NCBI GenBank assembly: GCA_003330885.1
Contig: CP030277.1
Location: forward strand, 2,232,001 to 2,296,000
Direction: 5' to 3'
DNA from: Rhodobiaceae bacterium
GTDB taxonomy: Bacteria; Pseudomonadota; Alphaproteobacteria; Parvibaculales; Parvibaculaceae
DNA: 64,000 nt
The translations under genes were made by a program, and so were the position numbers. Positions within the stretch are counted from its first letter, which is position 1, and each line of letters opens with the position of its first letter. Below the pieces are notes generated by a model, which was not told where the DNA came from, ran no database searches, and saw nothing but the letters and a program-made list of their open reading frames with translations. Of this stretch, positions 15,196-18,523 are shown piece after piece.

Positions 15196-15735
15196 TCAGT
15201 GCCGAGTTGGCCGGCTGCCGAGCGCTTCCTGGAAAAAGGCTTCTGCCCTCTCCCGCTGTTCAGCAAGGCTCGAGTGGTCAACCTCTTCACCTGTACGCAT
15301 CTGGGCATCCAACCGGTCGATCCGACGATAGATATTCTCAGAGCGCACAATCAATTCTTTCAGCGCATCGGGTAGAAGATCCGTCCCATTAAGCTTCTTT
15401 GCCCGCCCGAGCTCACGTCCGCCCAGCGCATATTTATCTGACAGCGCATCGTTTTCAGTCATGTCGCCTTCGTTGACCGCCTTCTGAACCAAAAGCCACG
15501 CGGCAACCTGCATCAATCGTGTCGTCAGGCGCATGCTTTCAGTGGCATAGGCCAGAGCTGTGGCCCTGGGAAGGTCCTTCGCTTGGTCCCGACCAGGACC
15601 ATCAAGATAGGTCGCTGCCTCTTCCACAAGCGCCATGCCTTCACGATAGGTCCGCTGAAAGAGCTGCGACCCGCCAAAAGGCGACCGACCATCTCCGTTT
15701 TCACCACCACCGCTTGTTTTGTTGCCGAAACTCAT
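15196..15735 (-). CDS. rcdA: RcdA-like protein (DUF1465), cell-cycle proteolysis adaptor
   Basis: 179 residues of the DUF1465 family, to which Caulobacter RcdA belongs. RcdA is a three-helix-bundle dimer that works with CpdR and PopA to deliver CtrA and other substrates to ClpXP during the cell cycle. Conserved stretches are FQRTYREGMALVEEAATYLDG and ESMRLTTRLMQVAAWLLVQKAV. The ATG at 15735 is preferred over a GTG four codons upstream. An intergenic gap of nearly 480 bases with unusual structures precedes it, and DUF1192 and trcR lie nearby. Confidence 0.88.
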   Translation of the reverse strand: MSFGNKTSGGGENGDGRSPFGGSQLFQRTYREGMALVEEAATYLDGPGRDQAKDLPRATALAYATESMRLTTRLMQVAAWLLVQKAVNEGDMTENDALSDKYALGGRELGRAKKLNGTDLLPDALKELIVRSENIYRRIDRLDAQMRTGEEVDHSSLAEQRERAEAFFQEALGSRPTRH

Positions 15736-15859
15736 AAGACCACTCACTGTTAATCATGTTGCCGACGCCCATGAGCAAGCAGACACCAGCACGTAGCCAG
15801 CGACCGTACCAACCAAGGACGCGTTGCGCTTCAACTATCAACAAGCATGCCATCCGGTT

Positions 15860-15981: not shown

Positions 15982-16011
15982 AAAAAATGAGCCACAGTTG
16001 CCTGCGGCTCA
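15982..16011 (-). terminator. Intrinsic terminator with GNRA loop
   Basis: As minus-strand RNA, arms TGAGCCGCAG and CTGTGGCTCA (one G-U pair) close a GCAA tetraloop and six Us follow (bases 15987-15982). It ends either the candidate small RNA or the DUF1192 transcript. Confidence 0.88.
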
Positions 16012-16081
16012 AGTTCTAACAGGGAGGCGTCAAACAGAGTGGATAGGAGCCACTCAAATCCAGATGACTGGATTACGCCTC
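15982..16081 (-). ncRNA. Candidate structured small RNA
   Basis: On the minus strand a perfectly paired three-way junction is followed by a strong intrinsic terminator. P1 pairs GAGGCGT (16081-16075) with ACGCCTC (16030-16024). P2 pairs AATCCAG (16074-16068) with CTGGATT (16063-16057) across a TCAT loop. P3 pairs GAGTGG (16055-16050) with CCACTC (16042-16037) across a CTCCTAT loop. All 20 base pairs are canonical. The P3 loop holds CTCCT, the complement of a Shine-Dalgarno AGGAG, as in C-rich loops of alphaproteobacterial sRNAs. I found no convincing promoter, so it might instead be a processed 3' UTR of the DUF1192 transcript. The family is not recognised. Confidence 0.6.
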
Positions 16082-16186
16082 TAAACAATACATAAGGACT
16101 GGCTAACAAATAGTTAAAATTGAGCGAGAGCGCAGTCACAAGACCTAAAATAGCCGCTCTATACTTGATCAGAATCAAAAGAACTC

Positions 16187-16225: not shown

Positions 16226-16423
16226 TCATTTTCGAAAAACTGCCTCAGCTTCACTCAAACTGCCCTGCTTTGAGGCGATCATGGCTTCGGAACGCGCAAT
16301 TTCGTCCGTAAGCAAAGTGATTCGTTCTTTGAGCTCATCGACACCCAGAAGAGAAATATCCTCTTTCGCCAGCACCTGAAGGCTGTCAGGCACGCGTTTG
16401 GGCTCCAAGTCTTCTTTGTCCAT
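16226..16423 (-). CDS. DUF1192 family protein
   Basis: 65 residues starting MDKEDLEPKRV, with the DUF1192 core SLLGVDELKERITLLTDEIARSE, a short coiled coil. The ATG at 16423 has GAGGAG seven bases upstream, and in-frame codons further up are not family-like. DUF1192 genes are small, of unknown function, and commonly sit between rcdA (DUF1465) and a quinone oxidoreductase in alphaproteobacteria, exactly as here. Confidence 0.88.
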   Translation of the reverse strand: MDKEDLEPKRVPDSLQVLAKEDISLLGVDELKERITLLTDEIARSEAMIASKQGSLSEAEAVFRK

Positions 16424-16543
16424 GCGCCCTCTCCTCATCGTTGGATCGTGATCCGCTGCCCTGTTGCGCGAACCGCCCAATCATTGAATGGTGAGCCACT
16501 TTGCCATTTCATATCCTCACCTCAAAGACAAAGAGTGTTCTGA

Positions 16544-17545
16544 ATGTCCTCAAATCTGCCGACCAATATGACCGCCATCAAAATTCCAGAGCCCGGCGGA
16601 CCGGAAGTCCTCACCCCAACCGAAGTGCCGCTGCCAACACCAGGACACGGCGAAATTCTGGTGAGGATTGCAGCCGCAGGTGTGAACCGCGGGGACCTTG
16701 TGCAGCGCATCGGCCTCTACCCTGCCCCGAAAGGCGTCACAGATACGCCGGGCCTGGAGTTTGCGGGAGAGGTTGTCGCGCTGGGCACCGGCACATCCCG
16801 CTGGTCCCTCGGCGACAATGTCTGTGCCCTGGTTGCCGGTGGCGGTTATGCCGAGTATGCCATCGTTCACGAAACCCATGCCCTGCCTATCCCAGATGGC
16901 TACTCAATGGTGGAAGCTGCTGCGTTGCCAGAAACCATCATGACGGTCTGGACCAATGTCTTTGATCGCGGCCGATTGCAGCCCGGCGAAACACTTCTGA
17001 TCCATGGCGGCACCAGTGGCATTGGCACCACCGCCATTCAGATGGCTGTTGCCTGGGGCGCGAAGGTCTTTGCCACAGCCGGGTCAGACGAAAAAGCCCG
17101 CAAATGTGAAGAGCTGGGCGCCCGGCGCGGCATCAATTATCGCGCAGAAGATTTTGTCATGGTGATGGATGAAGCAACCAGCGGCCAGGGGGCCGACGTG
17201 ATCTTTGACATGGTCGGCGGCGATTACATCCAGCGCAACATTACCTGCGCAGCGCGCGGTGGTCGGATCGTCAACATCGCCTATCAGCAGGGCTCGGTGG
17301 CAGAGGTGAACTTTCTGCCCTTGATGTTGAAACAAGTGACCCTCACCGGCTCTACCTTGCGCGCACGACCGCTGGAGGAGAAAACCGTCCTCACAGAGAC
17401 AGTCCTCCGAGAAGTATGGCCCTGGATCGCCGCAGGCCGCCTGAAGCCCATCGTGGACAGCACGTTCCCGCTCAGAGACGCAAAAGCAGCCCATGAGCGC
17501 ATGGAAAAGGGCGGGCATATTGGAAAAATCATCCTGACTGTTTAA
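16544..17545 (+). CDS. NAD(P)H quinone oxidoreductase, zeta-crystallin type
   Basis: 333 residues of the zinc-free medium-chain dehydrogenase family. A GroES-like N domain (GVNRGDLVQRIGLYP) is followed by a Rossmann domain with GGTSGIGTTAIQMA near residue 150. Members reduce quinones with NADPH in the cytoplasm. The start could also be the ATG at 16568 (MTAIKIPEPGG), which fits many homologs. The first ATG is kept because neither has a clear SD. It is divergent from DUF1192 and 129 bases upstream of trcR. Confidence 0.9.
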   Translation: MSSNLPTNMTAIKIPEPGGPEVLTPTEVPLPTPGHGEILVRIAAAGVNRGDLVQRIGLYPAPKGVTDTPGLEFAGEVVALGTGTSRWSLGDNVCALVAGGGYAEYAIVHETHALPIPDGYSMVEAAALPETIMTVWTNVFDRGRLQPGETLLIHGGTSGIGTTAIQMAVAWGAKVFATAGSDEKARKCEELGARRGINYRAEDFVMVMDEATSGQGADVIFDMVGGDYIQRNITCAARGGRIVNIAYQQGSVAEVNFLPLMLKQVTLTGSTLRARPLEEKTVLTETVLREVWPWIAAGRLKPIVDSTFPLRDAKAAHERMEKGGHIGKIILTV

Positions 17546-17674: not shown

Positions 17675-18523
17675 ATGTCTAAGCCGCTCATGCCAAAGGC
17701 TGCTGCCGTCTGGCTCGTAGATAACACCTCACTGACCTTCGATCAGGTCGCCGACTATTGCGGTCTGCATCCACTTGAAGTGAAGGGCATTGCCGATGGC
17801 GACGTCGCCCAGGGCATCAAGGGCATGGACCCTGTCGCCTCTGGTGAGCTGACGCGTGCCGAAATTGAGCGCTGCCAGGAAAATCCAAACGAGCGGCTCC
17901 AGTCTGCGGAGCGCAAGCATGAAGTGCCTGCGCCAAAGCCCCAGAAGGGCCCCCGCTACACACCTGTGTCGCGCCGTCAGGATCGCCCGGACGCCATCGC
18001 CTGGCTGCTGCGGAACCACCCTGAGCTCCCAGACGCGCAAGTGGGACGCCTTGTGGGCACAACCAAACCAACCATCCAGTCAATCCGCGACCGGACCCAT
18101 TGGAACTCCCAGAACATCAAGCCGGTCGATCCGGTCACGCTCGGCCTCTGCAGCCAGATGGAGCTGGATGCTGCGGTACAGAAAGCCGCTGACAAGCTGG
18201 AACGCGCTCGCAAGAAAGCAGAAAAAGCCGCCCGCAAAGCTGGCACGCTTCTTCCTGCAGAAGAAACAACAGGCGAAGCAACAGCCGATCCGTTGGGTCT
18301 TGCGCGTCCTGCAGCCCACGAAGTTCCGGCCGATCAGTTGAACGTGCCATCCATCGATGACGCCGATCCATCAGAGCCAAAACCATTTGCGGTGAGCGAT
18401 GTATCGGATGCCTTTACAGCGGCACCGAAGCCCAAGGAAGTTGAAGCCGCACCAGACGTCGACTCTGTCTTCGCAAAGCTCAAAGACCTGAAGGTTGAAG
18501 GCGACGACGAAAACAAAGAATAA
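17675..18523 (+). CDS. trcR: Cell-cycle transcriptional regulator TrcR (DUF1013)
   Basis: 282 residues. The DUF1013 core (about 1-170) is conserved: MPKAAAVWLVDNTSLTFDQVADYCGLHPLEVKGIADG, a second HTH-like unit DAIAWLLRNHPELPDAQVGRLVGTTKPTI, and RTHWNSQNIKPVDPVTLGLCSQMELDAAV. A charged, Ala/Lys-rich and then acidic tail (170-282) is longer than in many homologs. Related proteins are annotated as the CtrA-linked regulator TrcR. A strong SD (AAAGGAGAAG) precedes the ATG and a terminator follows. Confidence 0.9.
   Translation: MSKPLMPKAAAVWLVDNTSLTFDQVADYCGLHPLEVKGIADGDVAQGIKGMDPVASGELTRAEIERCQENPNERLQSAERKHEVPAPKPQKGPRYTPVSRRQDRPDAIAWLLRNHPELPDAQVGRLVGTTKPTIQSIRDRTHWNSQNIKPVDPVTLGLCSQMELDAAVQKAADKLERARKKAEKAARKAGTLLPAEETTGEATADPLGLARPAAHEVPADQLNVPSIDDADPSEPKPFAVSDVSDAFTAAPKPKEVEAAPDVDSVFAKLKDLKVEGDDENKE

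Follow-up and report, generated by a model that had tools for sequence, protein, structure and literature searches.

The window, a stretch of 64,000 nucleotides from a Rhodobiaceae bacterium (contig CP030277.1), carries on its minus strand a structured RNA set between two conserved protein genes. The neighbours named in the initial annotation, DUF1465 (the RcdA family, PF07323) and DUF1192 (PF06698), were both confirmed. rcdA is the gene of a regulator of CtrA degradation. Read in the direction of the RNA, the features of the locus are as follows.

17675-18523, plus strand: TrcR-family cell-cycle regulator gene, beyond DUF1192
16544-17545, plus strand: oxidoreductase gene, beyond DUF1192
16226-16480, minus strand: DUF1192 gene, the upstream neighbour (PF06698, E 5.5e-17; conserved synteny)
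16103-16117, minus strand: CtrA-type box TTAACTATTTGTTAG, TTAA-N7-TTAG, 7/8 of TTAA-N7-TTAA (from sequence and a positional test)
16090-16095, minus strand: weak -10-like hexamer TTATGT (by eye)
15982-16081, minus strand: sRNA proper, about 100 nt (fold z-score and Rfam match; 5' end predicted, uncertain by several nt)
16024-16081, minus strand: three-way junction of P1 (16081-16075/16030-16024), P2 (16074-16068/16063-16057) and P3 (16055-16050/16042-16037)
16043-16049, minus strand: exposed, anti-Shine-Dalgarno-like P3 loop CUCCUAU (identical in 27/30 members from the order, UUCCUAU in 3/30)
16018-16031, minus strand: class-wide conserved core GACGCCUCCCUGUU, the likely seed (alignment A1, 28 sequences)
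15982-16011, minus strand: intrinsic terminator, 10-bp hairpin with GCAA loop and six U (fold and alignment)
15196-15747, minus strand: RcdA-family gene (DUF1465), the downstream neighbour (PF07323, E 2e-51; conserved synteny)

The minus-strand fold proposed for 15982-16081 was borne out by a minimum free energy of -45.6 kcal/mol (z -6.84), as compared with a mean of -24.47 (sd 3.09) in shuffles of the same stretch, of which 0/200 were as good. All 20 pairs of the claimed 7+7+6 bp junction are standard upon inspection and agree with the predicted fold, and the claimed terminator is a 10-bp hairpin with one G-U pair, a GNRA loop and six U. The initial annotation knew of no matching Rfam family, a statement that does not hold: RF02356 (BjrC1505), an alphaproteobacterial sRNA family in Rfam, fits 15982-16126 of the minus strand over model positions 1-140 of 140 at 91.8 bits versus a cut-off of 50. 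It is the one above-threshold match in an Rfam 15 scan of the 64-kb window, and the one RF02356 match in the genome. The minus-strand RNA is a well-supported Parvibaculales member of this known family, judged from its sequence. BjrC1505 is said to come from Madhugiri et al. 2012.

Within the order Parvibaculales, RF02356 was matched at E <= 0.001 in 35/40 genomes (over the cut-off in 34/40), including 27/27 of those that are near-complete and clean. In the class sample, searched at Rfam settings, the same E-value was reached in 40/385 genomes and the cut-off in 17/385. A 3'-core model built from 28 sequences (alignment A1, R1) matches 220/385 class genomes at E <= 0.01, the weaker matches being a mixture; among 40 of the weaker-match loci that were fetched, Rfam gave no name to the first 20, and to the second 20 SorX three times, suhB once and two tRNAs. 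A pattern scan of named genomes returned 27 records, including Parvibaculum, 'Alpha proteobacterium Mf 1.05b.01' and two Microvirga species, the others being MAGs labelled Rhodobiaceae, Parvibaculaceae or Alphaproteobacteria. No function of RF02356 was found in the open-access literature searched, in which BjrC1505 appears only as a table entry and RF02356 itself is unnamed.

Conservation of the helices was assessed in a structure alignment of 37 sequences, 28 of them distinct, with 30 from the order and 7 from elsewhere. In the junction and terminator 84.7% of cells are paired, compared with 37-42% when the structure is slid along the alignment. Pairs changed on both sides number 6 versus 3.3 in shuffles (reached in 8/500), double-change cells 19 versus 4.6 (0/500), and the covariation score is 0.094 versus 0.064 (0/500), but further pair types number 14, fewer than the shuffles' 17.4 (499/500 as high), which counts against covariation. 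The doubly changed pairs fall in P2 (three), P3 (one) and the terminator region (two). With respect to the covariance check proposed in the initial annotation, the RNA is conserved in relatives, with compensatory changes in P2 and P3 and none in P1. The proportion of cells paired is 96.4% in P2, 96.4% in P3, 94.4% in the terminator (scored as a single helix of nine out of the ten pairs) and 59.7% in P1, whose inner 4 bp are kept in 25-27/28 sequences and whose outer 3 bp are kept in 3-7/28. Among 30 loci of the order P1 has 7 bp in four, 6 bp in one and 4 bp in 25; all five longer helices belong to the window's genus, where 4/7 genomes have the 7-bp form. P2, P3 and the terminator therefore have some covariation support, while P1 is backed by conservation only, its full length being local. 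An alternative hairpin, UUUGACG-CCUCCC-UGUURRA with CCUCCC in its loop, is predicted in several relatives; in 29 sequences it fails to form in the more distant members and has almost no compensatory changes, and it was dropped.

The P3 loop had been singled out as the anti-Shine-Dalgarno element. It is indeed kept in the order, but it differs in many other groups, and the class-wide element is GACGCCUCCCUGUU, downstream of the loop. In fact, 8 of the 12 invariant columns of alignment A1 (28 sequences) lie within this core (G9 A10 G12 C13 C14 T15 C16 T19), and GACGCCUCCCUG, complementary to the Shine-Dalgarno-like AACAGGGAG, is the most strongly constrained stretch in the sample. Partition functions were computed for 28 sequences, all truncated 53 nt upstream of the core. 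In 25 of them, four or more of the six bases of CCUCCC have an unpaired probability above one half; the exceptions are L054, L016 (P1 pairs CCU) and the window's own RNA (P1 pairs CCUC). A caveat on the seed thus applies to the window's genus: since P1 pairs the first four bases of CCUCCC, the exposed anti-Shine-Dalgarno-like elements in the window's genome are the P3 loop and the CCUGUU left free.

The gene order DUF1192 - sRNA - RcdA recurs well beyond the family. At least one neighbour was found in 37/54 loci from at least 19 family-rank groups, and both in 15; because some loci end at contig ends, 37 is a lower bound. The 54 loci comprise five of the window's own family, the fetched other-family loci matching RF02356, L092, L093 and L094-L115; outside them stand 18 weaker loci, L116-L133, in which no neighbour was found, and 26 further loci of the own order. 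The 54-locus count used a strand filter, and when this filter was removed 83/83 neighbour matches (95 loci) lay on the RNA's strand. A first DUF1192 profile had picked up antisense frames of the adjacent oxidoreductase gene and was rebuilt; L020, L039, L042 and L054 are still counted through the older profile, as a same-strand frame of less than 700 nt lying 100-700 nt upstream. In L050 and L051 (genomes G413 and G247) the core of the rcdA-linked sRNA occurs twice in tandem, 200 nt apart.

The motif TTAA-N7-TTAA was first seen by eye in DNA that Rfam models as the RNA 5' end. It was scored as the best match to the eight fixed bases within 115 nt upstream, using 500 dinucleotide shuffles and one locus from each of 24 genera that retain a neighbouring gene, four of these genera belonging to the own family. 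The mean score was 7.08/8 versus 5.72 in the shuffles (sd 0.14, highest 6.125); a box of 7 or 8/8 was present in 20/24 genera versus 3.6 expected, and just 6/8 in the other 4/24. Between 61 and 77 nt upstream of the core, an interval picked after the first box result was seen, boxes of 7-8/8 occur in 17/24 genera versus 0.77 expected (highest 5 in 1000 shuffles). In the same interval all 30 loci of the order reach at least 6/8 and 22 at least 7/8. Three genera then without detected neighbours, scored apart, all reached at least 7 (3/3), L054 among them later becoming syntenic via the older profile. Outside the 24, Microvirga aerophila and M. alba carry 8/8 boxes 69 and 68 nt upstream of the core, and L092, of a syntenic genus, has a 7/8 box at 59 nt, beyond the tested interval.

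A first control, made up of 23 sRNAs that lack the synteny but resemble the RNA at the 3' end, scored at background level (5.17 versus 5.04 shuffled); these were hand-picked by eye, omitting six neighbour-less loci that resemble the syntenic kind by eye. The full control of 27, being every non-syntenic fetched locus at one per genus, gave a mean of 5.70 versus 5.13 (sd 0.13), with 8/27 at 7 or above versus 1.4 expected and 4/27 within the interval versus 0.27. Since the full control is itself raised, the box also occurs beyond the syntenic set; it is much commoner within the interval in that set (17/24) than in the non-syntenic one (4/27). The control excess comes mainly from L094, L100 and L108-L111, which have the CUCCCUGU core and a 7-8/8 box with no rcdA or DUF1192 close by, and which may be unlinked family members that left the neighbourhood.

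The window's own box TTAACTATTTGTTAG lies 21 nt from P1; with 16081 as the start of the RNA, the 5' base of the box would be at -36. Such spacing is the activating one for full CtrA motifs of Caulobacter, according to the part of the report available (PMC4287350). CtrA is encoded in the genome of the window (426.3 bits versus a cut-off of 350). From their sequence, the first ~45 positions of the Rfam model look like promoter rather than RNA, which suggests that the RF02356 model, whose 5' third appears to be promoter DNA, should be trimmed. Upstream of ctrA itself in the same genome (L056), several TTAA half sites including TTAACCTTTGTTAACC were seen by eye, consistent with autoregulation.

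Based on these features, the locus probably encodes an RF02356 sRNA that is activated by CtrA and acts in trans by pairing with Shine-Dalgarno regions; the control by CtrA and the targets are the inferred parts. Family membership, conserved structure, gene neighbourhood and the CtrA-type box are directly supported. In the proposed mechanism, the gene between DUF1192 and rcdA would be transcribed from its own promoter, with CtrA binding the TTAA-N7-TTAA-type box overlapping the -35 region and activating transcription at high CtrA~P. This would yield a separate transcript of about 100 nt, with its 3' end set by the terminator of the sRNA gene itself. The sRNA is then predicted to act in trans, CUCCCUGUU, helped by the CUCCU of the P3 loop, pairing with Shine-Dalgarno regions (complement AACAGGGAG), so that translation or stability of the target mRNAs would be lowered. 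Most likely, the RNA would be produced while CtrA is active and would repress translation by antisense pairing. Where the transcript starts, whether CtrA binds and activates the promoter, and how and with which mRNAs the RNA pairs are predictions from sequence patterns. RF02356 has a match in 0/14 control genomes, which is counted against the CtrA-activated sRNA; Caulobacter vibrioides is named among the controls.

Other explanations were weighed against the same evidence. A reading as the 5' leader of rcdA, with the CtrA box as the rcdA promoter, the hairpin and U-tract as an attenuator and the short RNA as a by-product or cis-regulator, is unlikely, even though the RcdA gene, where found within the flanks, always lies downstream on the RNA's strand and the available portions of two reports place a CtrA motif upstream of rcdA in Caulobacter (PMC4287350) and in Sinorhizobium (PMC3616915). 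Where RcdA was not found, other genes lie downstream, namely a PF01053 Cys/Met-metabolism PLP enzyme gene in L032, L034, L036 and L046 (f41, f2, f64) and a thioesterase-like PF13279 gene in L052 (f80), with neither gene on that strand in L049 (f41); since the flank searched was 1.5 kb, rcdA may be farther off in these loci. The core, the terminator and a 7-8/8 box persist in L032, L036, L046 and L052 (L034 lies outside the scored set), which speaks against a leader.

The initial annotation offered a stable 3' UTR fragment processed from the DUF1192 mRNA as an alternative, and DUF1192 does lie upstream on the same strand in many loci. This origin has become the less likely one, and a decidedly poor prospect, because a position-conserved CtrA-type promoter element separates the DUF1192 stop from the RNA. 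Furthermore, the RNA is kept with RcdA but without a detected DUF1192 in L037, L038, L045, L051, L053, L096, L098, L102, L104 and L105, although L037 and L051 are truncated by contig ends and in others the gene could have diverged beyond recognition. There is also a small chance that the RNA is an independent trans-acting sRNA of the same family whose box is a CtrA repressor site or the AT-rich palindrome of another regulator, as imperfect boxes in several genera would allow; the -36 spacing and the presence of CtrA in the genome point the other way. The preferred reading remains the CtrA-activated sRNA, and the claim of a conserved structured sRNA beside cell-cycle genes, most likely trans-acting, is supported, the compensatory changes of P2 and P3 included.

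Candidate targets were sought through the complement of the core. Across 40 Parvibaculales genomes, the motif AACAGGGAG was counted 368 times at a distance of 4-13 nt upstream of ATG, as compared with 181 for ACAAGGGAG and 190 for CAAAGGGAG, composition-matched 9-mers counted at the same position in the same genomes (paired tests p < 1e-6, with related genomes not independent). In the window's own genome the counts are 13, 4 and 1, respectively, the 13 matches to AACAGGGAG-N4-13-ATG being 12 sites, one counted twice. Because other alphaproteobacterial sRNAs share CUCCCUGU, the AACAGGGAG excess is not assignable to the present sRNA. Open frames of at least 150 aa follow 8/12 of the sites (L216-L221, L223, L224) and encode two enoyl-CoA hydratases, two SDR oxidoreductases, a quinone-reductase-like enzyme, a TAXI-TRAP binding protein, a glyoxalase-like protein and a CMD-family protein. 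The hydratase genes lie near positions 432187 and 803097 of the genome, and one SDR gene near 2947022. SDR and acyl-CoA genes turn up behind the control motifs as well (one gene per genome, 30 genomes, each motif); an enrichment in function is not put forward, and the genes preceded by AACAGGGAG would serve as leads only. The pattern ACAGGGAGG-N3-11-ATG occurs at four places in the genome, the one convincing gene being nitrile hydratase beta.

The family itself was already in Rfam; the recurrent gene neighbourhood and the conserved CtrA-type promoter box are what the present analysis adds. The box and the recurrent place beside rcdA lead to a direct hypothesis, that of a CtrA-regulated riboregulator common to many groups of the class. 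A wider proposal is more tentative: rather than being restricted to rhizobia, RF02356 might be an old sRNA of the alphaproteobacterial cell cycle, activated by CtrA and kept in its place between DUF1192 and rcdA, that couples CtrA activity to the translation of mRNAs with a AACAGGGAG ribosome-binding site, in this order often those of catabolic and acyl-CoA enzymes, and the extended P1 in part of the window's genus might be a seed-hiding switch.

Among known sRNAs, BjrC1505 (RF02356) matches over its full length, with the same core GACGCCUCCCUGUU, the same P3 hairpin and the same terminator. Its Rfam model differs in pairing ~45 initial positions that are read here as CtrA box and -10, and in drawing no helix between the RNA 5' end and ACGCCUC; L031, the closest relative of the RF02356 consensus in the sample (125.9 bits), folds with a 4-bp P1. 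SorY (RF02651), SorX (RF02784) and suhB/mmgR (RF00519) resemble the RNA in a CUCCCUG-like stretch followed by a terminator, and their models score far below cut-off on the window (22.3 versus 111, 16 versus 46.6 and 17.1 versus 41 bits, respectively). Loci like SorX, SorY or suhB (L114, L124, L127, L131, L133) have no rcdA or DUF1192 neighbour and a best CtrA-box match of 5-6/8. Kinship with SorY was rejected, the best SorY-like loci L134-L136 (f22) being the places of L114, L131 and L127, which lack rcdA and DUF1192, so that SorY is an analogue only. A SorY-like match elsewhere in the own genome (C1:1523454, 31.9 bits), considered as a second CUCCCUGU sRNA, proved to be sequence without such a core. 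A second alphaproteobacterial sRNA layout, ACGUCUCCCAGACGUGAAGCCUCCCUGUU (with variants) plus a terminator, was observed in many genera (L097, L106, L112, L113, L116-L118, L121-L123, L125, L126, L129, L130, L132); these loci have no small-RNA match in Rfam above threshold, and rcdA and DUF1192 are absent within their flanks.

In the literature searched on CtrA with sRNA and rcdA, or on CtrA with anti-Shine-Dalgarno, no report of the present RNA was found in the portions available, and part of what is given here may already have been published. The SmelC671 family of Rhizobiales, compared by its description in the accessible part of PMC3927594, may be an orthologue or another CUCCCUGU sRNA. EcpR1 is likewise a cell-cycle sRNA, of Rhizobiales, with the loop motif UCCGCCGCAUCU and a place downstream of divK-pleD, as described in the part of the report available (PMC4414408). 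EcpR1/SmelC291 was rejected as the family, since upon inspection UCCGCCGCAUCU is absent from 15982-16126, as is the divK-pleD placement here. CcnA of Caulobacter crescentus, 182 nt and encoded inside the replication origin according to the available part of PMC8959179, is probably a different gene, to judge by locus, the present RNA lying between DUF1192 and RcdA. Both have a CtrA box in the promoter, the window's RNA a 7/8 box at -36 if it starts at 16081, which is a shared trait rather than proof of kinship. Among the sRNAs described with a CtrA box in the literature searched, CcnA comes nearest, as far as the accessible texts go.
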